DNA of 35,694 bases from positions 1-35,694 of the IMG/VR virus record IMGVR_UViG_3300048589_001332; one strand, written 5' to 3'. This stretch comes from a virus. Under the pieces are notes generated by a model. The model had not been told where the DNA came from. It was given only the letters and a program-made list of their open reading frames with translations, and did no database searches. Below, one piece after another: positions 5,953-18,706 of the stretch. The first letter of the stretch is position 1; each line of letters opens with the position of its first letter. The position numbers were made by a program, and so were the translations under genes.

Positions 5953-5983
5953 AACGCCCCTCAAAATGGGGCGTTGCTTTTTT
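5953..5983 (+). terminator. Terminator after the 5376 gene
   Basis: Stem AACGCCCC/GGGGCGTT with a 7-nt loop and a GCTTTTTT tail. It ends 18 nt before the ATG of the next gene. Confidence 0.75.
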
Positions 5984-6000
5984 ACAAAACAATTAAAACC

Positions 6001-7011
6001 ATGGCAACGAAAAAAAAATCAACCAGCAAACCCAAAAAAGAGGATGTTCAGCCTGCAGCACTCCAGGATAATGAAATTCCTGCTGATGCCATTGCAAATG
6101 CAGTACCCGCACCATCAGAACCTGAGGATGTTCAGCCTGCAGCACTCCAGGATAATGAAATTCCTGCTGATGCCATTGCAAATGCAGTACCCGCACCATC
6201 AGAACCTGAGGATGTTCCAGAATCAGTAGATACGGATACTGAGGTTCCTGAATATTACGACACTTTTGTAATTCCATTTGTTGATTCTACTGCAAAATGG
6301 GAAGAACTGAGGTATGCACTCAGAAGCATCGCCAAAAATGTAAGCAACAATGCAAAAGTTTGCATCGTTGGCGCTGGATTACCATCGTTTGTTAATCCTG
6401 ATACTGTTACACTTATTGAGTGCGAGCAGGTAAAGGGTATGAGGTTTGCAAAATCCTATGATTCCATTGAAAAGCTGAAAGCAGCCATCAATCATCCCGA
6501 TGTTTCCGAAAGGTTTGTCTACACATACGATGATACCGTTATTCTTCACCAGATTACATCTTTTGAAGATGTTCCTGCAATTGCTGTATCACATATCAAC
6601 CCTGAAAAAATCAGCGATATGGATGGAAGCGCAATCTGGAAAGAGGTTTTGCAAAATACAGTTGGCCGGCTGAAAGCAAATAATCTGCCTATGCTTAACT
6701 ATGAAACACATTTGCCCAGAGTTTTCACAAAAGAAAAGGTTAAATCGACAATTGAAAAATTCGGGTTCCAGAAACGGCCTTATCTTTTCTCAACACTTTA
6801 CTTCAATTCGCTTGAAGAAAAAGATGTGATTCAACTGCTTAAAGATGCTGTTCATATCAAAGCCGACATCCGCAAACCACTCACACCCGAAGAAATTAAG
6901 GCCGAAGTTAAAAACAAAGTATTCCTCAACTACAACGACTCCGGACTTAATGAGCACCTGAAAGACTTCCTGATGGAAACATTCCCTGAAAAGTGCCGCT
7001 TCGAAATTTAA
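6001..7011 (+). CDS. Stealth-like/GT-A-type glycosyltransferase candidate in head operon
   Basis: 336 residues from the ATG at 6001; the frame is open upstream to a TTG at 5974, but that lies in the terminator, so 6001 is used. Residues 1-13 are Lys-rich; residues about 14-69 are two identical 28-residue repeats rich in Ala, Pro and acidic residues. The domain after residue 88 begins FVIPFVDSTAKWEELRYALRSI and contains YTYDDTVI with Asp177-Asp178, then RVFTKEKVKSTIEKFG. These resemble the Stealth/capsular phosphotransferase and GT-A glycosyltransferase pattern (sugar-nucleotide binding start, DxD-type acidic pair). The substrate is unknown; it could modify virion proteins or host glycans. It is the last gene of the head operon. 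Family call is moderate. Confidence 0.6.
   Translation: MATKKKSTSKPKKEDVQPAALQDNEIPADAIANAVPAPSEPEDVQPAALQDNEIPADAIANAVPAPSEPEDVPESVDTDTEVPEYYDTFVIPFVDSTAKWEELRYALRSIAKNVSNNAKVCIVGAGLPSFVNPDTVTLIECEQVKGMRFAKSYDSIEKLKAAINHPDVSERFVYTYDDTVILHQITSFEDVPAIAVSHINPEKISDMDGSAIWKEVLQNTVGRLKANNLPMLNYETHLPRVFTKEKVKSTIEKFGFQKRPYLFSTLYFNSLEEKDVIQLLKDAVHIKADIRKPLTPEEIKAEVKNKVFLNYNDSGLNEHLKDFLMETFPEKCRFEI
6040..6207 (+). repeat. Two identical 84-bp tandem repeats in the glycosyltransferase-like gene
   Basis: Units at 6040-6123 and 6124-6207 are identical, followed by a 10-nt start of a third (GAGGATGTTC). Each encodes 28 residues beginning EDVQPAALQDNEIPADA. Identity at all codon positions indicates a recent duplication, and the unit length keeps the frame. 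Confidence 0.95.
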
Positions 7012-9367: not shown

Positions 9368-10988
9368 TCTGTATCTAAATATTCCGCAGCTGCAGTGCAT
9401 CCTGGTTGACCCCAAGGAGCTTTACGCCCATATGGGACGCGGATTAGGTAAAAGTACCGAAATCATCGCTCATTTAACGGCAAACCGGGTTTACGATATG
9501 CCCAGGGCTGGGTTCCTGCTTATGGGACGCACTTACAAGCAGATTCTTACCAAAACACTTCCGGCAACCGTTGACGGATGGAATAAGCGTGGGTTTGTTG
9601 AAGGCGTTCATTATGTAATCGGAGAAAAACCTCCCTGGGATGTTAAAGCATATGGGGCGCCTCAAAAGGATTACACTCATTTCATTTCATTTTACACCGG
9701 CACCGGCTTTCATCTGGGCAGCCAGGACAGGCCAGGGCTGGTAAACTCACTTACAGTGTGGGGGATTTTTGGAGATGAGTCAAAACTTTTGCTCGAAGAA
9801 AGATTCAAAGAAGACGCCATGCCTACCCTCAGGGGAAATCTCAACGCATTTAAGGATAACCCGCATAACAGATCGGTAGTACTTACTTCGTCCATGCCGC
9901 CTTTGCCCGATGGGCAGTGGCTTTATGAAATGGAAAAGAGGATGAACGAAAAGAAGATACGTGCAATACTCAATCTTTCGTGGTATGTTGAGCAGCTAAA
10001 GGTTGATTACAACGAAGCCGGTGAGTTCTTTAAACCCCGAATTGCCCGCAAAATCAAATTCTTCGCTCAGAAGCTGAATAAATGGCGTTTGGATAAAGAT
10101 GGCCAGGTAATGTATATTGAAGCCAGCAGCCTGGCGAATTTGCATATCCTGAGGCCTGATTATATACTTCAGCAACAGGATATACTCAAGGGTAAGTTTC
10201 GCACCGAAATATTAAACCTAAAGCCTAAACGCGGCGAAAGCTTGTTTTATGCCAACCTTGCGCCACGGCATTATTACACCGATTTTAATTACAACTACCT
10301 GGGAAGGTTCAACCATAAGAATATTGCCGAAAACGACAATTGTCAGGGCGATAACGATTTGCTTAAAACAAATCCTTTGATTATAGGGATGGACTTCGGC
10401 CCCAACTTTAACTGTATTGTTACAGCTCAGAAAATAGAAAGCCTCAGGGAGATCAGGTTCCTGAAGAATCACTGGGTAAAGTCACCCAAGATTATAGACC
10501 ATGTGTGCCAGGATTGGTGCGATTATTACCATACCCATCCTAAACGTGAGTTGTTGTTTTATTACGATAATACCGGGAACAACCGACAGGCAAACAGCGA
10601 CCTTACATTTGCACAGCAAGCCGCTCGGATATTCCGCAAAAACGGATGGGAAGTTACCCAGAAGACCATAGGAGGAGCCAACCCGCAGCACGATAAGAAG
10701 TATCTATTGTGGAACCTGATGTTGCTTGAGCAGGATAAGATCCTTTACAAGGTACGCATAAACGAGTCAAACGCCAGCGATTTGAAGCACAGCATGGAAT
10801 TCGCTCCAGCCAAAGAGGGAAGCAACGGGGAAGTAAAGAAAGACAAAAGCTCTGAAAAGAAAGCATCAATACCCGACGAAGAGGCAACCCACTTAAGTGA
10901 TGCCGCCGATACCATTGTATTTGGAGAGTTCAGAAATGTACTCGATTTATTCGATATGTCAAATTATTACGATATCAGGATAAGGTAG
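9360..10988 (+). CDS. Terminase large subunit (packaging ATPase-nuclease)
   Basis: 542 residues, the normal length for TerL, the motor that pumps DNA into the prohead and cuts it. The ATPase domain shows a Walker A-like GRGLGKST at residues 26-33 and Walker B as WGIFGDE with Asp139-Glu140, then a coupling-type motif VLTSSMP. The C-terminal RNase H-like nuclease shows Asp345 in IIGMDFGPN, Asp403 in FYYDNTGNN and Asp514/Asp517 in HLSDAADTI. It is the last gene of the packaging operon; a 980-bp non-coding region follows. The portal gene is nearly 9 kb away, which is unusual. Confident. Confidence 0.93.
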   Translation: MNDLYLNIPQLQCILVDPKELYAHMGRGLGKSTEIIAHLTANRVYDMPRAGFLLMGRTYKQILTKTLPATVDGWNKRGFVEGVHYVIGEKPPWDVKAYGAPQKDYTHFISFYTGTGFHLGSQDRPGLVNSLTVWGIFGDESKLLLEERFKEDAMPTLRGNLNAFKDNPHNRSVVLTSSMPPLPDGQWLYEMEKRMNEKKIRAILNLSWYVEQLKVDYNEAGEFFKPRIARKIKFFAQKLNKWRLDKDGQVMYIEASSLANLHILRPDYILQQQDILKGKFRTEILNLKPKRGESLFYANLAPRHYYTDFNYNYLGRFNHKNIAENDNCQGDNDLLKTNPLIIGMDFGPNFNCIVTAQKIESLREIRFLKNHWVKSPKIIDHVCQDWCDYYHTHPKRELLFYYDNTGNNRQANSDLTFAQQAARIFRKNGWEVTQKTIGGANPQHDKKYLLWNLMLLEQDKILYKVRINESNASDLKHSMEFAPAKEGSNGEVKKDKSSEKKASIPDEEATHLSDAADTIVFGEFRNVLDLFDMSNYYDIRIR

Positions 10989-11067
10989 ATTTGGGCGAGA
11001 CGGCTGCTGAAGAGCGCAGCCGTACGGCTTTCCGCTATATCTTTTGCTGTCATCATTGGTATACTAC

Positions 11068-11257
11068 GGGCAAGCAAAAACCATACGTTTCATTTCGTTT
11101 CGTATTGGCGGCAACCACTGCCTTTGCCAACCCAAACACACAGCACTCCATTTCATTTCGTGCAGAGTGTTTCTTACTCGCTTAATCTTATACTTCGCAG
11201 CTCGGCAGAGATAGCCGCCAATACTTCACTTCATTACACTTCTGCTTTTGCTTGCCC
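11068..11257. repeat. Nested long-range inverted repeat
   Basis: The outer arms GGGCAAGCAAAA (11068-11079) and TTTTGCTTGCCC (11246-11257) are exact complements. The inner arms GTATTGGCGGC (11102-11112) and GCCGCCAATAC (11214-11224) are also exact. The 21-22 nt between outer and inner arms on each side are not complementary. This could fold into one large hairpin with an internal bubble, or be the remains of a mobile element or recombination site. Confidence 0.75.
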
Positions 11258-11437
11258 TTTATCAGCTTTTGTATCCAGCAAAAGGATGCCGCTGCAATCC
11301 TCTCGCAGGGCTTCATCATTCTATTAGGCCTGTTTCCATTGCTTATTACTTCTGTGCTTTACCCGAGAACAATATGGCGTTACACTGTGCTATACAGCTT
11401 AGTGGCGCGCTCATAGCCAGTTTTATTGAGGTTTTTA

Positions 11438-11526
11438 TGTAAACCTTGTAAACCATGTAAACCTATGATTATAAATAATTAAAATACAACTAATTACAGG
11501 TTTACAGTCGGTTTACATAGTTTACA
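11438..11526. repeat. TGTAAACC site array in two orientations around an AT-rich core
   Basis: Three direct copies of TGTAAACC at 11438, 11447 and 11456 (9-bp period) are followed by an AT-rich core (11464-11498) and then three inverted copies: GGTTTACA at 11499 and 11510, AGTTTACA at 11519. Six sites converge on the core. This resembles iterons next to an unwinding element, or a multi-site operator. Confidence 0.7.
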
Positions 11527-11538
11527 GTTTGTTTATAT

Positions 11539-11629
11539 GGTGTTCCGCTTCGCTGCACGAATATGGGGCGCGCAGCGCCTTTAATAGGTGTTCCGCTACG
11601 CTCCACAGCACTATGGGGCGCGCAGCGCC
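11539..11629. repeat. 48-bp tandem repeat with GC hairpins
   Basis: The copies at 11539-11579 and 11587-11629 both begin GGTGTTCCGCT and end ATGGGGCGCGCAGCGCC; the middle differs. Each ends in the hairpin GGCGC-GCA-GCGCC. No coding sense. Confidence 0.7.
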
Positions 11630-11695
11630 ATATATCACTTTTTGGGCGGTGTTAATTGCTCACAGGGTAACCAGCGTGGCGTTAGTTCCTCTGTC

Positions 11696-11724
11696 AATCC
11701 CGGCAAAAAAATGCCGGGATTTTG
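11696..11724 (+). terminator. Terminator-like hairpin
   Basis: Stem AATCCCGGCA/TGCCGGGATT with an A6 loop and a short TTTT tail. It separates the repeat region from the promoter of the island. No gene ends close by, so it may end a non-coding transcript or read-through from TerL. Confidence 0.6.
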
Positions 11725-11780
11725 TAAAAAAACAAGTAAGGACAAACAAAGCAGCAAAAAAATATTGATTGATCCCCGAT

Positions 11781-11818
11781 ATTTAGACTGATTCTAAATT
11801 TACAAACTGCTATATTTG
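11781..11818 (+). promoter_or_regulatory. Host-like promoter with ATTTAGA inverted repeat
   Basis: A perfect -7 box TATATTTG (11811-11818) lies downstream of an inverted repeat ATTTAGA-CTGAT-TCTAAAT (11781-11799), near the expected -33 region. A nearly identical site lies at 14128-14152. The arrangement suggests a regulated promoter for the gene at 11970 and the ArdC-SymE pair. Confidence 0.5.
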
Positions 11819-11969
11819 CCTGTATATCAGTTAATTACAGAGCAAAAAGGCAGCCAAACAATTAAAAATAATAGCCAAAACACTTGCTTTGTATTATAAT
11901 TATCTGTAAATTAGCTCATTATTAATTCAGAAACAGCAGTCCGAGCTGTATAAAAACCGGTTTACGTTT

Positions 11970-12404
11970 ATGAGTAAAACAGCCCGCAAGGTTGCAGACA
12001 TCGCAGCCGAGAACACCGAAAGCCAGAGCAACAGCCAGGCAACCAACACCCCCGCCCCTGTTATGCAGGTGCTTAAACCCGAAGCCAGGGAAGAGCCGGA
12101 ACCGGAACCAGAAGCCAAAGCCCAGGCAGCCGAACCACCGAAACCGGTTTCTATTTCGGAGATCAAACGCAGAGCCCAGGAGATTTATTTGCTTTCGGAG
12201 CAACATGACAACCTTACAGCCCAGCTTGAAAAGGTGATGGAGTTTGCCGCCGAAGTTGGCGAAAATGCAACCCTTTCGCTGTCATCGGACGGGGTACGCA
12301 GATTCAACAGCAAAGACCCGGCAGCCGTGGCAAAAATGGTTGAAATCTGCATTAGCAACATTAAAGAGCGGATTAATGAAGTAGAGGCTAAACTTGCAGC
12401 CTGA
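11970..12404 (+). CDS. Unknown protein, 144 aa, with Pro/Glu-rich N-terminus
   Basis: Not recognised. Residues 1-60 are low-complexity (Ala, Pro, Glu, Gln; EEPEPEPEAKAQAAEPPKP), probably disordered. Residues 60-144 are helical (ISEIKRRAQEIYLLSEQHDN, ISNIKERINEVEAKLAA), suggesting a coiled coil. It starts at ATG; about 60 nt and a strong hairpin separate it from the ArdC gene. Acidic small proteins next to antirestriction genes are common in mobile elements, but no function can be claimed. Confidence 0.7.
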   Translation: MSKTARKVADIAAENTESQSNSQATNTPAPVMQVLKPEAREEPEPEPEAKAQAAEPPKPVSISEIKRRAQEIYLLSEQHDNLTAQLEKVMEFAAEVGENATLSLSSDGVRRFNSKDPAAVAKMVEICISNIKERINEVEAKLAA

Positions 12405-12421
12405 TCAATTATTAATTAACC

Positions 12422-12449
12422 GGCCGGCAACCGCACACGGTTGCCGGCC
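12422..12449. repeat. Perfect hairpin without T-run between two genes
   Basis: A 12-bp perfect stem GGCCGGCAACCG/CGGTTGCCGGCC with loop CACA, followed by TAAATC, so it lacks the T-run of an intrinsic terminator. It may be an mRNA stability or processing element upstream of ardC. Confidence 0.65.
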
Positions 12450-12463
12450 TAAATCATTAGAAC

Positions 12464-13390
12464 ATGACAACAAACATATATGAAAGTATAAACGCCCGGA
12501 TTACCGGACTTTTAAACGACAAGCTAAAAGGCTACGAAAAAACATGGTTCAGTGTTAAAGTTGAGCCATCTGCCCGAAATCCTTACACAAATCACTACTA
12601 TGCAATGATTAACAACGTTTTATTGCATATGGGTTTAATTGTGCGCCATGGTTACTACTTAAACCGCTGGATTACTTTCCTGCAGGCTAAACAGCTTGGC
12701 GCAAAAATCAGGAAAGGCAGTTACAGCGAAACTATTGTTTTTACATCGAGCATTTATCTGGATGGTGATGATAAAAATGTAAGCAAAACAGCCAGAGCCA
12801 TAGCCGATGCCGGGGGACAACTGCCCGATGGTTGGAGGCAAATACCATTTTTAAAGGGGTTCAACGTCTTTAATGTTGCCGATGTTGAAGGATTGCCAGC
12901 CGATTGGACCATCCCCGAAAAGATTGAATTTAACAACTCGCAGCGAATTGCCAAAATTGATGAAATTATCAGGCAAACCGGTGCAGTAATTAACGAGACA
13001 AACACAAACCAGCCCTGCTATTATCCGGGTAGAGATCAAATATTTATGCCCATGCGTTGGCAGTTTGACAGCGGAGATACATTTTACTCTGTTTTGTTTC
13101 ATGAACTTGGACATTGGACAGGACACGAAACCCGGCTAAATCGCAAGCTTACACCAAAACAGGAAGATTACGCATTTGAAGAACTTGTTGCAGAACTTAC
13201 CGCGGCTTATTGTTGCGCCCGGCTTAATCTTGCCGGAGAAATAACCAACAATGCAGCCTATATTAAGGGATGGTTAAAAGGCCTTGAAAATGACATGAAG
13301 TTTTTTACCCTTGCCGCTTCACTTGCGCAGAAAGCAGTTAATTACATTTTTGGCGAAGCAGCAGAAAACGCAGAAAGGAGCGCAGCATGA
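12464..13390 (+). CDS. ArdC-like antirestriction protein (zinc metallopeptidase fold)
   Basis: 308 residues. The N-terminal part (YLNRWITFLQAKQLGAKIRKGSYSETIVF in two adjoining segments) matches the ArdC N-terminal ssDNA-binding domain pattern. The C-terminal part carries the zincin motif His213-Glu-Leu-Gly-His217 in LFHELGHWTGHETRL, with a downstream EELVAELTAAY helix for the third metal ligand. ArdC-type proteins protect incoming plasmid or phage DNA from host restriction. It acts in the cytoplasm. Its stop overlaps the SymE-like gene start by 4 nt. Family call is confident; antirestriction activity is known for the family, not shown here. Confidence 0.88.
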   Translation: MTTNIYESINARITGLLNDKLKGYEKTWFSVKVEPSARNPYTNHYYAMINNVLLHMGLIVRHGYYLNRWITFLQAKQLGAKIRKGSYSETIVFTSSIYLDGDDKNVSKTARAIADAGGQLPDGWRQIPFLKGFNVFNVADVEGLPADWTIPEKIEFNNSQRIAKIDEIIRQTGAVINETNTNQPCYYPGRDQIFMPMRWQFDSGDTFYSVLFHELGHWTGHETRLNRKLTPKQEDYAFEELVAELTAAYCCARLNLAGEITNNAAYIKGWLKGLENDMKFFTLAASLAQKAVNYIFGEAAENAERSAA

Positions 13391-13635
13391 AACATATAAC
13401 AATGAGATGTTTAACCATTGGCGAAGGTATAAGGGTGCGGAAGCATAACCAGCGGACATATTATCCTCAAATAAGGTTGGAAGGTGTTTGGCTTGAGGAT
13501 GCCGGATTTTTGCCCGGTTCGGTGGTTTACCTTTTTGTAGAATCCGGTAAAATTGTGCTTAAATCTAAGCCTGAGAACGAAACCGAAGCAAAGGCAATAA
13601 AATTAATAAACGCGCTGGATGATGTAGCAGCATAG
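13387..13635 (+). CDS. SymE-like toxin (AbrB-fold)
   Basis: 82 residues with the SymE pattern: YYPQIRLEGVWLEDAGFLPGS followed by VVYLFVESGKIVLKSK. SymE of E. coli is an SOS-linked toxin with an AbrB-type fold; its mRNA is held down by the antisense RNA SymR. Here it is translationally coupled to ardC (overlap ATGA). In E. coli symE also lies beside restriction-modification genes, so the pairing with an antirestriction gene is notable. A GC-rich hairpin cluster follows the stop. No SymR-like gene can be assigned by eye. Confidence 0.78.
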   Translation: MKHITMRCLTIGEGIRVRKHNQRTYYPQIRLEGVWLEDAGFLPGSVVYLFVESGKIVLKSKPENETEAKAIKLINALDDVAA

Positions 13636-14180: not shown

Positions 14181-14211
14181 TGCATAGTATCAAATTTGAT
14201 ACTATCTTTAC
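14181..14211 (+). promoter_or_regulatory. Promoter with 22-bp palindromic operator for helicase/IbrAB operon
   Basis: TTG (14181-14183), 20 nt, then TATCTTTA (14204-14211) fits the Bacteroidetes -33/-7 pattern. The spacer is filled by a perfect 22-bp palindrome (14185-14206, half-site ATAGTATCAAA). A dimeric repressor bound here would block polymerase; the XRE protein at the end of the same operon is the natural candidate. Confidence 0.75.
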
Positions 14212-14261
14212 ATCATTAATTTAAAGCTGGCGGCAACAGTGAACAATACGGCGCAAATACA

Positions 14262-14825
14262 TTGAAAACTATAAAATCACTTTCGAGAGAAGCCAACGAG
14301 CTTCGGGCAAAATTCCAACAAACCATTGTTAAGGAACACATAAAAAGGGAAAAAGGTATCGGTGGCTACAAAGGCCAAATCTACTTTTTACTTCCAAAAT
14401 TTGATCAGAGGAATCCTTTATACAAAGGGGTCCCAAAATCTGTTTATTGTGAATTGCATGAGTATCTTTTCACAGTCCAGAGCCAGAAGAGGTTTTCTCA
14501 ATACCGCTTTTTTAACCAATTGGACATCGTTAAGAGCTTCATTGCGAGAGACATCACTCCTTGTTACTCCAGAGTTTGGCACAGTGGAGTATCTGCATGG
14601 TCAACGGGAGGAACATCTGATACCGCTCGTAAACACTTCGCCGCTCAGGCTGCAGTGTTATATGACGGAGTTGAAAAATATGGCTTTACTTATTACCCAA
14701 ACGATTACAACTTCGGCAGCCATCTTTACCAGCAGTTGAAGAATGCTGATCCGTTATTGGTTAGTATTTATACCCGTATTTTGGAAAGGAAAATGGCTGA
14801 AATATCGGTTACACATGAGAACTAA
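14262..14825 (+). CDS. Unknown protein, first gene of helicase/IbrAB operon
   Basis: Not recognised; 187 residues. The start is a TTG at 14262, about 50 nt after the -7 box; no in-frame ATG is available near the start, so the exact start is uncertain. The chain is basic at the N-terminus (SLSREANELRAKFQQTIVKE) and has aromatic-rich segments (YCELHEYLFTVQSQ, KYGFTYYPNDYNFGSHLYQ). No membrane segment. It overlaps the next gene by 11 nt. The operon position suggests it works with the helicase and IbrA/IbrB-like proteins. Confidence 0.65.
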   Translation: MKTIKSLSREANELRAKFQQTIVKEHIKREKGIGGYKGQIYFLLPKFDQRNPLYKGVPKSVYCELHEYLFTVQSQKRFSQYRFFNQLDIVKSFIARDITPCYSRVWHSGVSAWSTGGTSDTARKHFAAQAAVLYDGVEKYGFTYYPNDYNFGSHLYQQLKNADPLLVSIYTRILERKMAEISVTHEN

Positions 14826-15138
14826 ATGCTACTCCGTACGCCTTGAAAGCCTGGTCAGTGTATCTGACCGGGCTTATAAAGCCAGGACCTTTGATGGCTC
14901 AGAGGATATAATCCCAAAAAGCCTGGTATTTGGTTATGATTATGAGGTGCAGAAATCAGATGCTTACTGGATTGCAGCCTGGATACTTGAGAAAAAAGAC
15001 CTGCAATACAGCACAAAAAAAGAAGCCTGGTTTGATAGTGACACCAGAGAAATGTTGCCTAGTTATAAAGTTGAACATCATATTCCGGAACGCAAAGAGC
15101 CTGTAAAATCCAACATCCATGCAGACCTTACTAAGTGA
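14815..15138 (+). CDS. Unknown protein, 107 aa
   Basis: The ATG at 14815 is chosen; the frame is open to 14743, but that stretch overlaps the previous gene and encodes an odd Trp/aromatic-rich string. The product (YKARTFDGSEDIIPKSLVFG, DAYWIAAWILEKKDLQYS) is not recognised; its compact alpha/beta pattern could be a small adaptor of the helicase that follows. The end overlaps the helicase start by 20 nt. Confidence 0.65.
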   Translation: MRTKCYSVRLESLVSVSDRAYKARTFDGSEDIIPKSLVFGYDYEVQKSDAYWIAAWILEKKDLQYSTKKEAWFDSDTREMLPSYKVEHHIPERKEPVKSNIHADLTK

Positions 15139-16339
15139 CCAAAATGAGGCTAAAACAAAACTGCTTCCATTTAAGGTAGGGGCTTTGTTTATGGAGCCAG
15201 GAACCGGCAAAACCCGGGTGGCAGTTGAGCTTGTGAACGCTGTTCAGGACATTGACCTGGTTGTATGGATAGGGCCTTATCGCACAATTCACACTGCCGA
15301 CGACATTCCGACAGTGATGGATGAAATCGGGAAGTGGGGAGGATTTAACGCCGAGGCAATTTATTACGGCATTGAAAGTATTCAAAGCTCAGATAGACTA
15401 TATCTTGAGCTTCGTAGTAAAATGCAGGCTTCAAAATCGAGTTTTATTGTGGTTGATGAAAGCCTGAAAATTAAAAACAGCGAGGCAAAGCGGACGAAAC
15501 GTTTGCATGATCTGGGACAATTATCAACCTATAAGTTGATTCTGAATGGTACCCCGATTACCCGTAACCTGCTAGATATGTGGAGTCAGATGAATTTCCT
15601 TTCACCGCTAATCCTGAATATGGGCCTGGCTGAATTTAAAAACACGTTTTGTGAGTATACCACGCTGACAAAGCGATTCGGGGGGCATAAACTGTACACT
15701 AAGGAATTTATTACCGGATACGAGAATATTGATTACCTGTACAGCCTGATCAGGCATTATGTTTACGAATGCGATCTGAGCCTGCAGATAAAGCAGTATT
15801 ATACTGAGCTTAATTATCAGATGGATGAAGTATCCATGGCAGAATATAATTATCTGAAGGAAAAGTATCTTGATAATGAGATGCTGGTGTGGAAAAACAA
15901 CAATATTTTCCTTGAAATGACACAAAAAATGCAGCATGCATATTGCTGCACTCAGGAAAAATTTGAGGTGCTAAAGAATTTGTTTAAGACTATTCAGGAA
16001 GATAGAACAATCATTTTTTGTAAATACATAGCAAGCCAGAAAGCTTGCCGTAAATATTTTCCGAAGGCCACTGTTTTGAGCTATCAAAAAGAATCGCTTG
16101 GCTTGAATTTACAATACTTAAACAATACTGTTTATTTTGATAAAATATGGGACCTGGCACTTCGCCTTCAGAGCGGGCGCAGAACCTTTCGAACTGGTCA
16201 GGAATATGACTGCAGGTATTATGACCTTACCGGCAACGTTGGACTTGAATCGCTCATTGACCGGAATATTCACAAGAAAATAGGAATCACCGAGTACTTT
16301 AAAAAAGTCAGTAAAGAACAATTAATTGCTGAGTTATGA
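15119..16339 (+). CDS. SNF2-type superfamily 2 helicase/ATPase
   Basis: A 406-residue compact SF2 ATPase. Motif I (Walker A) is EPGTGKT at residues 26-32, motif II is VVDESLKIKNSEAKRTK with Asp113-Glu114, motif III is LILNGTPITRN, and the C-terminal motif VI is RLQSGRRTFRTGQ, the SNF2 arrangement. Many phages carry short SNF2-like proteins of this kind in early regions. It probably moves on double-stranded DNA. The start overlaps the preceding gene, and the stop overlaps the IbrA-like gene (ATGA), so it is one translationally coupled unit. Role in replication, modification or defence is open. Confidence 0.85.
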   Translation: MQTLLSDQNEAKTKLLPFKVGALFMEPGTGKTRVAVELVNAVQDIDLVVWIGPYRTIHTADDIPTVMDEIGKWGGFNAEAIYYGIESIQSSDRLYLELRSKMQASKSSFIVVDESLKIKNSEAKRTKRLHDLGQLSTYKLILNGTPITRNLLDMWSQMNFLSPLILNMGLAEFKNTFCEYTTLTKRFGGHKLYTKEFITGYENIDYLYSLIRHYVYECDLSLQIKQYYTELNYQMDEVSMAEYNYLKEKYLDNEMLVWKNNNIFLEMTQKMQHAYCCTQEKFEVLKNLFKTIQEDRTIIFCKYIASQKACRKYFPKATVLSYQKESLGLNLQYLNNTVYFDKIWDLALRLQSGRRTFRTGQEYDCRYYDLTGNVGLESLIDRNIHKKIGITEYFKKVSKEQLIAEL

Positions 16340-17619
16340 ACGTGTACGAAGCCACAATGAAGCGCATTGCTTACCTGTTCGATGAATTTGAGCAGGTTAT
16401 AATTTCATTCTCAGGTGGGAAGGATAGCGGCGTGATGCTGAATCTGGTGCTTGATTATGCAAAACAGGCCGGGCAGCTATCGAAAGTTGGCGTTTACCAC
16501 ATGGATTATGAGGCACAGTACCAAATGACAACCGATTATGTGGTTCGTACATTTGAAAGCCTTCCGGATGAAGCTGGAAGATATTGGGTTTGCCTGCCAA
16601 TAAAAGCGCAATGCGCTACCAGCATGTTTCAGAATTTCTGGCAGCCATGGAAAAAGGAAGATAAATCCATTTGGTGCCGTGATTTGCCGGACGATTGTAT
16701 CAATGAAGATAACTTTCCTTTCTCATTTGATTATGAAGTTTCGGATTATGAGTTTAATATCCGCTTTGCAAAATCAATATCAGCGAAGAAAAAAACCTGT
16801 TTTTTGATTGGCATTCGCACCCAGGAGAGCCTGCACCGGTATAAAGCTGTAAATAAGTTCAGCGATAAGAATGAATACAAGTCGAAAAACTACACTACGG
16901 TACTCACATACAATTGCATTAACGCCTATCCGATTTATGACTGGCTGGTTGACGATGTGTGGATTGCCAATTACCGGTTTAAATTTGATTACAACCGGCT
17001 TTATGACCTGATGTACAGGGCCGGTTTAAAGCCAGGCCAGATGCGTGTGGCCAGCCCGTTTAATGATTGCGCTACGGAGAGCCTTAAACTTTACAAAGTG
17101 ATAGATGCCAACAACTGGGGTAAGCTGATAGGCAGGGTAAACGGGGTAAACTTTTCAGGGCTTTACGGAGGCACTACAGCCATGGGGTGGAATACCATTA
17201 AAAAGCCCGCTCACTTTACCTGGAAGCAATATATGTACTTTTTGCTTGATACACTTCCTGAAGATACCAGGGAGAACTATCTTCGAAAGTTAAAGGTATC
17301 TTTTGCCTATTGGCTTGAGAAAGGTGGCGCTTTGCCTGTTGATGTTGCCAATGAACTGGATGGTAATAATATTGAATTTGAGGACCTGGGAGCTCCGGAG
17401 AATAACCGGAATTATACAAGCGACTACCGGGTGATAAAGTTCAAGGAGTATCTTGATGAGATTGATATCCGAAACCCGAACTTACTGCCAACTTACAAAA
17501 GGATGTGCATCGCCATCATGAAGAATGATACAGCCTGCAAAACGCTCGGATTCGGCCTTACAAAGCAGGAATTGGAGCGCAGATCGAATATAATGACTAA
17601 ATATAAAGCGTTGTTATGA
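16336..17619 (+). CDS. IbrA-like PAPS reductase-family protein
   Basis: 427 residues with the PP-loop SGGKDS at 26-31 (VIISFSGGKDSGVMLNLVLDY), the hallmark of the PAPS reductase/ATP-pyrophosphatase family that adenylates a substrate. Further family segments are FLIGIRTQESLHRY and NAYPIYDWLVDDVWIAN. Length and C-terminal extension fit IbrA/DUF3440 proteins rather than cysteine biosynthesis enzymes. In E. coli, IbrA together with the ParB-like IbrB controls prophage-encoded genes. The next gene here is IbrB-like and overlaps by ATGA, reproducing that pair. The substrate and reaction are unknown; DndC of DNA phosphorothioation belongs to the same superfamily. Confidence 0.83.
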   Translation: MNVYEATMKRIAYLFDEFEQVIISFSGGKDSGVMLNLVLDYAKQAGQLSKVGVYHMDYEAQYQMTTDYVVRTFESLPDEAGRYWVCLPIKAQCATSMFQNFWQPWKKEDKSIWCRDLPDDCINEDNFPFSFDYEVSDYEFNIRFAKSISAKKKTCFLIGIRTQESLHRYKAVNKFSDKNEYKSKNYTTVLTYNCINAYPIYDWLVDDVWIANYRFKFDYNRLYDLMYRAGLKPGQMRVASPFNDCATESLKLYKVIDANNWGKLIGRVNGVNFSGLYGGTTAMGWNTIKKPAHFTWKQYMYFLLDTLPEDTRENYLRKLKVSFAYWLEKGGALPVDVANELDGNNIEFEDLGAPENNRNYTSDYRVIKFKEYLDEIDIRNPNLLPTYKRMCIAIMKNDTACKTLGFGLTKQELERRSNIMTKYKALL

Positions 17620-18236
17620 AATGTTTAATCTCAGATTGGTCGTGTGTTTACCATGCTTGTATGAGTGATGATTGTCAGAAAGAAGTTGTACTTTCACAAG
17701 GGTTTGAATTAGGGAAAAGTAATTGCAAAAAAATGAAATCACCTGTTTATAATGTTATTCCAGTGCCTGTAGAAAAGATACAGGCCAATAGTTATAACCC
17801 GAATGCCGTGGCGCCTCCTGAAATGAAGCTGCTTTATCAGTCGATCAAAGAGGATGGCTATACCATGCCGATAGTCTGCTATTACTTGTCAGATATTGAC
17901 AAATATGAGATTGTTGATGGCTTCCACCGTTTTACTGTTATGCTTAAACATCGCGACATTTATGAGCGCGAAAACGGCCTTATGCCGGTGGTTGTAATTG
18001 AAAAAGACATCAGCAACCGCATGGCCTCCACCATCAGGCATAATCGTGCCCGTGGTTCGCATGATATTGACCTGATGGTTAACATTGTTTCTGAGCTAAC
18101 TAAATCGGGCATGAGCGATGCCTGGATAATGAAACACATTGGCATGGATGCCGATGAGTTGTTAAGATTAAAACAAATATCTGGCCTTGCAGAACTTTTT
18201 AAAGACAAAGAATTTTCAAACTCACAAGAAAAATGA
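17616..18236 (+). CDS. IbrB-like ParB-family protein
   Basis: 206 residues. The ParB/sulfiredoxin-like domain starts near residue 43 (VIPVPVEKIQANSYNPNAVA), with KSI/QSIKEDGYTMPIV, the ParB box YEIVDGFHRF and a downstream HNRARGSHDID. This is the IbrB pattern. The start used overlaps the IbrA stop (ATGA); it adds a Cys-rich N-terminus (Cys3, Cys10, Cys15, Cys20, Cys37). An alternative ATG at 17733 has a better A-rich leader (AATTGCAAAAAA) and would begin just before the ParB domain. The protein presumably binds nucleotide and/or DNA and acts with the IbrA-like partner. Confidence 0.82.
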   Translation: MKCLISDWSCVYHACMSDDCQKEVVLSQGFELGKSNCKKMKSPVYNVIPVPVEKIQANSYNPNAVAPPEMKLLYQSIKEDGYTMPIVCYYLSDIDKYEIVDGFHRFTVMLKHRDIYERENGLMPVVVIEKDISNRMASTIRHNRARGSHDIDLMVNIVSELTKSGMSDAWIMKHIGMDADELLRLKQISGLAELFKDKEFSNSQEK

Positions 18237-18706
18237 AAGACGACAAATACAAGGAAGCAGCACGGATGCTGCTGGGCTTTTTGAAACAAATTGCCCGGGA
18301 AAAAGGGATAACTGAAGTTCAAATATCAGAAACATCAGGGTTTATTCGCCCAAACGTTAACCGCATGTTTAGCGGCAAGTACATGCCAACGCTGGATAAT
18401 TTTATCCGCCTTGGAGATGCTGTTGGCGTTAGGCTTGAACTTCATGGACCAGAAGACACCACTGAAGCGCAGGTGAGGAATGTTAATATTCCAAAATTCC
18501 TTTTTTCGCCGGATGTGAAAACCAGAGAATTATACATAGTTCACACGCATTACCCTGCTTGCCTGATAAAGGTAGTGCAAACCATGCCGGCGCAGTTTGA
18601 AGTATTGCAAAACTTCGACAATTCAGATGATTTTTCTGAGGTATTGACAGAAGCAAGAGAATTCTTCCGGGATCAGGCAATTCAGAATAATGAGTTGATG
18701 AATTGA
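18233..18706 (+). CDS. XRE-type regulator ending the IbrAB operon
   Basis: 157 residues. An N-terminal helix-turn-helix of the XRE/Cro type spans about residues 14-63 (IAREKGITEVQISETSGFIR, MFSGKYMPTLDNFIRLGDAV). The C-terminal half is a separate alpha/beta domain (ELYIVHTHYPACLIKVV, DDFSEVLTEAREFFRDQAI) that I do not recognise. It overlaps the IbrB-like stop by 4 nt. As last gene of an operon whose promoter contains a 22-bp palindrome, it is the likely autorepressor. An antitoxin-like role is possible. Confidence 0.75.
   Translation: MKDDKYKEAARMLLGFLKQIAREKGITEVQISETSGFIRPNVNRMFSGKYMPTLDNFIRLGDAVGVRLELHGPEDTTEAQVRNVNIPKFLFSPDVKTRELYIVHTHYPACLIKVVQTMPAQFEVLQNFDNSDDFSEVLTEAREFFRDQAIQNNELMN

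Follow-up and report, generated by a model that had tools for sequence, protein, structure and literature searches.

What do the proteins named IbrA and IbrB do, whose labels ('PAPS reductase', 'co-activator of prophage expression') have been propagated into hundreds of phage and plasmid entries with no chemistry assigned to them? The question is raised by the viral record IMGVR_UViG_3300048589_001332, a stretch of 35,694 bases that was analysed as a whole (hereafter the window) and in which both genes lie in a six-gene operon, together with those for a minimal Swi2/Snf2 DNA translocase (SNF2), an XRE-type repressor candidate and two further proteins, ORF1 and ORF2 (ORF, open reading frame). 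IbrA and IbrB are long-named families and are not new as such. We report here that they form a core with ORF2 and the SNF2 motor, ORF1 and the XRE gene being variable, that this core is found again as a unit in numerous unrelated phages and in the core genome of Listeria, and that the grouping of the core genes is not due to chance. This core most likely marks or remodels DNA, and not with sulfur.

Conservation of a four-gene core

The initial annotation had described six coupled genes behind a perfect palindrome, and this arrangement was confirmed: six same-strand ORFs, each overlapping its neighbour by 4-20 nucleotides, occupy positions 14262-18706 downstream of a palindrome at 14184-14205. 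The features of the operon are as follows.

14184..14205, no strand: operator candidate, 22-bp perfect palindrome ATAGTATCAAATTTGATACTAT, which overlaps TATCTTTAC, taken here to be a Bacteroidota-type -7 element
14218..14253, + strand: conserved transcript leader TTTAAAGCTGGCGGCAACAG..ACAATACGGC, near-identical in the nearest relative, L002
14262..14825, + strand: ORF1, 187 residues, TTG start, an orphan in the variable first slot of the operon
14815..15138, + strand: ORF2, 107 residues, predicted SNF2 partner protein (phrog_5809)
15119..16339, + strand: minimal Swi2/Snf2 DNA translocase, 406 residues, with intact motifs and 1z63 as best PDB match
16336..17619, + strand: IbrA, PP-loop ATP-pyrophosphatase domain and DUF3440, from Pfam and the predicted structure
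17616..18236, + strand: IbrB, ParB/sulfiredoxin-fold domain and helix-turn-helix (HTH)-like C-terminus, conserved part 17733-18236
18233..18706, + strand: XRE-type repressor candidate, 157 residues, HTH_3 just under the cut-off, 59% identical to its L002 homologue

In locus sets whose viral contigs partly overlap, a scan anchored on IbrA found an adjacent IbrB in 203/209 loci and an SNF2 gene nearby in 93/209. Anchored on the motor, and counting complete loci, the scan found IbrA and IbrB in 29/29 viral loci of the clade to which the window SNF2 belongs (profile score of at least 400), 26 of these 29 also carrying an ORF2-type partner; both genes accompany SNF2 in 11 of the 12 loci of the middle tier and are neighbours of 2 of 14 generic SNF2 helicases. 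The genes are thus clearly not rarely found together, which is the outcome that would have spoken against the initial annotation, and the four-gene set that it named (SNF2, IbrA, IbrB and XRE) has to be redrawn, with ORF2 belonging to the core and XRE variable. Among annotated phages, ORF2, SNF2 and IbrA each match 90 Flavobacterium records, which come from few lineages, and relatives of IbrA occur in 218 phage and 597 plasmid records. When the SNF2 label was mapped onto a tree of 150 IbrA rows, it required 8 changes, against 38.8 by shuffling, a comparison that shows clustering but yields no rate, as sampling was partly SNF2-anchored and many rows are related.

Gene order differs, being SNF2-IbrB-IbrA in Flavobacterium and IbrA-IbrB-x-SNF2 in Fusobacterium, and the module is annotated gene by gene, not as a whole, in Flavobacterium phages 2A and FCL-2, Streptococcus phages CHPC877 and Pika, Lactobacillus phiAQ113, Fusobacterium phiFN37 and Listeria lmo1309-1312. 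Within Listeria sensu stricto it belongs to the core genome, standing among housekeeping genes as lmo1309-1311 plus the partner, and lmo1309-1311 had already been listed side by side in Listeria work (PMC5736727). In FCL-2 it sits between the terminase and portal genes; the authors of that study noted that two upstream ORFs travel with IbrAB, and reported the phage as non-lysogenic, with neither an integrase nor observed lysogeny (PMC4541368). In the literature searched, outside which lie many subscription papers and preprints, neither the four-gene module nor the superfamily of SNF2 partners nor the missing sulfur chemistry was found described in any paper.

Other genes were seen beside IbrAB in the loci compared. 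A 145-residue family, F3, with no Pfam or PHROG match, adjoins the pair in L047, L157, L203 and others; it occurs in 26/78 SNF2-free loci vs 0/53 SNF2-bearing loci (p=2e-7) and is an apparent substitute for the SNF2 unit. In Bacteroidota chromosomes (L052, L066, L086 and about 30 more), a 135-residue protein, F4, is encoded directly upstream of ibrA; it looks by eye like a GNAT acetyltransferase and has zero matches in Pfam, PHROG and NCBIfam. The module of L304 (NZ_LR134403.1, 'plasmid 6' of Listeria monocytogenes) is flanked by pyrH, frr, rseP and tkt in what looks like a chromosome fragment, and there a class I methyltransferase gene follows ibrB. In Fusobacterium phage phiFN37 (L041), positions 10748-13057, adjoining IbrA-IbrB-x-SNF2, hold genes for a second ParB-like protein, a queuine tRNA-ribosyltransferase-like protein and a queuosine precursor transporter, possibly a 7-deazaguanine unit.

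The motor, its partner and the IbrAB pair

The SNF2 protein scores 45.3 bits against SNF2-rel_dom (cut-off 24.9), its motifs GTGKT (Walker A), DES (Walker B), NLQ and QxxxR..R.GQ are intact, the arginine fingers R355 and R358 are conserved, and its best PDB match is the Snf2/Rad54-family helicase 1z63 (E=9e-29). ORF2 matches phrog_5809 at E=2e-49 and is modeled (pLDDT 86) as a mostly beta domain followed by a flexible tail that has a short helix at its end; a search with this model returned nothing from the PDB or viral structures at E<=0.001. Profile-profile comparisons connect the ORF2 family to F9 (probability 95%, E 2.5e-8), F9 to F17 (94%, 2e-7) and F17 to F23 (95%, 3e-8), four linked small-protein families found beside SNF2, most of which have in common a tail of the form E.H.P.K ... 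[ED]L[KR]x. Such ORF2-type partners are present in 31/53 SNF2-bearing complete loci and in 0/78 SNF2-free loci; of the other SNF2-bearing loci, 12 encode an unrelated larger protein, F7, and 10 have no recognised partner. In L160 (5992-7980) F7 and SNF2 are fused in a single 662-residue ORF, which supports a physical accessory role. As judged from these comparisons, ORF2 is an SNF2 partner protein that had not been named before, and its tail may dock on the motor.

IbrA contains DUF3440 (269.7 bits, cut-off 25) and a PAPS_reduct domain (44.7 bits, cut-off 22.5). The N-terminal half of its model (pLDDT 83) groups with CysH, the top fold match, and with FAD synthase, CysD and TilS; its nearest solved relatives (FAD synthase, CysD, PAPS reductase and TilS) are adenylyl-transferring or PP-loop enzymes. 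Across 222 IbrA homologues, S26, G28, K29, D30, S31, D57, E59, R161, E164, S165 and R168 are invariant, and the SGGKDS loop, of the ATP-type PP-loop, is intact. The catalytic motif of PAPS reductases, ECG[LIV]H, was found in 1/222 sequences, the four-cysteine iron-sulfur pattern of DndC (scored as C-x8-C-x2-C-x5-C) in 0/222 and CxxC in 2/222, and no cysteine is universal. Since the ATP-type loop is intact and the catalytic and iron-sulfur cysteine motifs are nearly absent, IbrA likely adenylates some substrate, and sulfide or persulfide chemistry on IbrA itself is unlikely, leaving room for a small sulfur donor from elsewhere. Compared with IbrA of L002, which is 90% identical, nonsynonymous divergence (dN) is 0.05 and synonymous divergence (dS) 1.6.

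IbrB scores 25.9 bits against ParB_N, just under the cut-off of 26.3, and matches phrog_2159 at E=4e-81; a profile search with IbrB returned Noc/ParB, SbnI and SerK, and one against the PADLOC models gave zero matches. It carries the motifs DGFHR and TIRHNRARGSH, the first of which we take to occupy the place of GERR in ParB and of DGHHR in SerK, a position that makes the use of a nucleotide by IbrB likely. The start of IbrB in every homologue checked is the residue matching the ATG at 17733; positions 17616-17732 are a 117-bp in-frame 5' extension of ibrB, specific to the window, with ATGAAAT repeats on its flanks. In a mycobacteriophage (L045) and a Pseudoalteromonas phage (L046), IbrB is fused to, or stands beside, an ectoine-synthase (cupin)-like domain according to their annotation.

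Control and setting of the operon

The palindrome ATAGTATCAAATTTGATACTAT is the sole perfect one of at least 16 bp in the whole window, and zero shuffles reached it even within 3 mismatches; the coverage of the sigma-70 scan does not extend to Bacteroidota-type promoters such as the one presumed here. At the equivalent position L002 has a 24-bp perfect palindrome, GATAATATCAAATTTGATATTATC, in which symmetric G/C to A/T changes preserve the symmetry; the leader also lies 3' of it, there ahead of an unrelated first gene, and an XRE gene closes the operon in L002 too. Because L002 keeps the palindrome through compensating symmetric changes and carries the matching XRE gene, a putative autoregulatory loop formed by XRE and the operator candidate is well supported at the sequence level, and with it the repressor that the initial annotation had assigned to the operon: the XRE protein (HTH_3 22.3 bits, just under the cut-off of 23) would close the promoter by way of the palindrome. 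More distant XRE genes occur in L222 and L214, where the upstream palindromes differ from that of the window. Among other viral contigs, 5 exact 20-bp matches to the palindrome were found, all within an unrelated coding gene, and were rejected as chance or codon-driven.

The first-gene slot is variable. The operon of L002 opens with a different gene, of 200 residues, whose ATG is in register with the TTG start of ORF1, and ORF1 had zero matches in Pfam, PHROGs (best E 0.14), PADLOC, NCBIfam, phages, viral contigs and the PDB. The window itself is that of a tailed, temperate-looking phage, with an integrase (179-1015), a head maturation protease, an endolysin, a tape-measure protein and an anti-repressor; a search for portal relatives, made to judge the cargo position that the initial annotation had proposed for the operon, returned none, and the host probably belongs to the Bacteroidota, given the relatives and the promoter type. 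Just upstream of the operon (12464-13635) lie genes for an ArdC-type anti-restriction protein (ArdcN plus zincin) and then a SymE-like protein, and near the head genes (5974-7011) one for a possible Stealth CR2-like protein (PF11380 33.5 bits, below the 39.4 cut-off; phrog_7999).

Possible functions and known systems

It is the combination of a motor, a DNA-binding ParB-like protein and an adenylating enzyme that points to DNA as the target, and these parts suit the DNA-directed system that had been proposed at the outset. The sequence shows the gene set, its co-conservation, the intact active-site residues and the operator candidate; association of the parts in a complex, DNA as the substrate and the outcome are inferred. 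We tentatively favour a self-repressed phage operon that modifies or protects phage DNA by a non-sulfur, adenylate-based route, or that resets expression. IbrB would bind DNA via its ParB-type nucleotide-binding domain and HTH, SNF2 and its dedicated partner ORF2 would travel along or remodel double-stranded DNA using ATP, and IbrA, through its PP-loop, would use ATP to adenylate a carbonyl or a phosphate, after which a non-sulfur nucleophile would displace AMP. Phage DNA would end up carrying a chemical mark that could shield it from host enzymes or reset host or phage expression. A bolder version, possible though rather unlikely, is that ORF2-SNF2-IbrA-IbrB is an undescribed, widespread system that adenylates DNA itself, on a base or phosphate, and swaps the AMP for a non-sulfur group, being loaded by the ParB-like protein and moved by SNF2.

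Several points weigh against a DNA modification. Most IbrAB pairs in bacterial chromosomes are free of SNF2, so they can in some settings do without the motor, and no gene for modified-nucleotide synthesis was found among the window ORFs scanned, which were a subset. To our knowledge, no unexplained base has been described in Listeria or in E. coli K-12, whose chromosomes carry the module or IbrAB alone. IbrAB reportedly activates the eib genes (the work of Sandt in 2002), and the only phenotypes on record are regulatory. A regulatory phenotype has also been described for ybdNM, which is under CitR (PMC9068703).

The main rival explanation is accordingly transcriptional control, unlikely but to be taken seriously: IbrB would be a DNA-binding regulator switched by IbrA, which would adenylate or sense a small molecule, while SNF2 would strip bound proteins, activating late phage or host genes. 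It is favoured by the ParB-type HTH-like region of IbrB, the place of the module in FCL-2, the prediction of YbdM as a transcription factor (PMC9068703) and a passage in PMC8065619 that, citing Sandt 2002, calls IbrAB a co-activator of prophage eib genes; however, an enzymatic loop conserved in 222/222 IbrAs and a dedicated motor would be heavy machinery for a regulator, and the position of the module differs from phage to phage. The proximity of SNF2 to Rad54/Snf2 translocases could suggest DNA repair or a function at the replication fork, in which SNF2 and its partner would serve as a helicase for annealing or translocation and IbrAB would process DNA ends or adducts. We consider this improbable: although exonuclease, RecT, primase or helicase genes adjoin some IbrAB pairs, they do so where SNF2 is absent, and we know of no repair role for a PP-loop adenylating enzyme. 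An anti-phage or superinfection-exclusion system on a prophage, considered in the initial annotation, would fit the temperate look of the phage, the presence in the operon of a promoter and repressor of its own, and the weak DndC, ZorD and DpdE domain matches. Its probability is low, as the PADLOC scan yielded zero complete systems and the module is found in the reportedly non-lysogenic FCL-2, in dairy phages (those of Streptococcus thermophilus) and in the Listeria core genome.

The sulfur-based readings fare worse. Dnd/Ssp-like DNA phosphorothioation with host IscS, a kinship also suggested by the initial annotation, could draw on the shared PP-loop superfamily, on matches to DndC models at E ~1e-8 and on the finding that DndA can be replaced by host IscS (PMC11662687). 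It is nonetheless highly improbable: IbrA scores 34.1 bits against DndC TIGR03183 (cut-off 290.4), lacks the cysteine pattern, whereas C280 of DndC is indispensable (PMC11662687), and no operon protein, IbrB included, matched DndB, DndD or DndE in PADLOC. Sulfur assimilation by a genuine PAPS reductase, the reading given in phage annotations, would explain the PAPS_reduct score and the CysH fold match, but is very unlikely given the near-absence of ECG[LIV]H, the ATP-type loop and a near-obligate ParB-like partner. Equally hard to credit is a toxin-antitoxin pair with IbrB as antitoxin and IbrA as toxin: TASmania lists lmo1309-1310 by guilt-by-association (PMC7020466), but this call comes from neighbourhood alone, and toxin-antitoxin layouts do not resemble a conserved set of four genes that includes a motor.

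With one SNF2 clade and its small partner linked to IbrAB, and sulfur chemistry unlikely, what had been a vague annotation becomes a defined system of four proteins. Its function is open to testing in harmless laboratory strains because the set is in the Listeria sensu stricto core genome and the pair in E. coli K-12. If DNA adenylation with non-sulfur replacement were true, phage DNA marking would gain a new chemical class, one shared by Listeria and by phages of several bacterial phyla.

Membership of the Dnd and Zorya systems was rejected on sub-cut-off scores and missing motifs and partners, and that of Dpd more provisionally, DpdA having been looked for in a subset of the window ORFs. The operon resembles Dnd in having a PP-loop ATP pyrophosphatase (as DndC) with ParB-superfamily and ATPase partners, but its IbrA is far under the DndC cut-off and without iron-sulfur cysteines, and DndB, DndD and DndE are missing. 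The 7-deazaguanine system Dpd presumably also pairs ParB-like with SNF2-type (DpdE) proteins; the window SNF2 matches DpdE across the helicase motifs only, no DpdA transglycosylase was present among the ORFs scanned, and in the relative phiFN37 the TGT-like gene is nearby but outside the module. With ZorD of Zorya the window SNF2 shares the SNF2 motifs (33.6 bits, cut-off 1500), but it has no Mrr-like nuclease domain and is well under half the size of ZorD, and the PADLOC scan gave zero matches of operon proteins to ZorA or ZorB. A close likeness is to the E. coli pairs IbrA-IbrB (ECOR-9) and YbdN-YbdM (K-12), in which DUF3440/COG3969 and ParB-like COG1475 proteins represent the same families with the same adjacency. 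In the copy of an E. coli phage (L044) the invariant PP-loop is retained, as are the DG.HR and R.NRARG.H motifs; that copy differs in that SNF2 and ORF2 are not nearby and in its IbrA, ~33% identical and with a shorter C-terminus. Compared with the clusters of Flavobacterium, Streptococcus, Lactobacillus, Fusobacterium and Listeria, the window adds an XRE tail with a cognate-looking palindrome, an orphan first gene and the IbrB extension.

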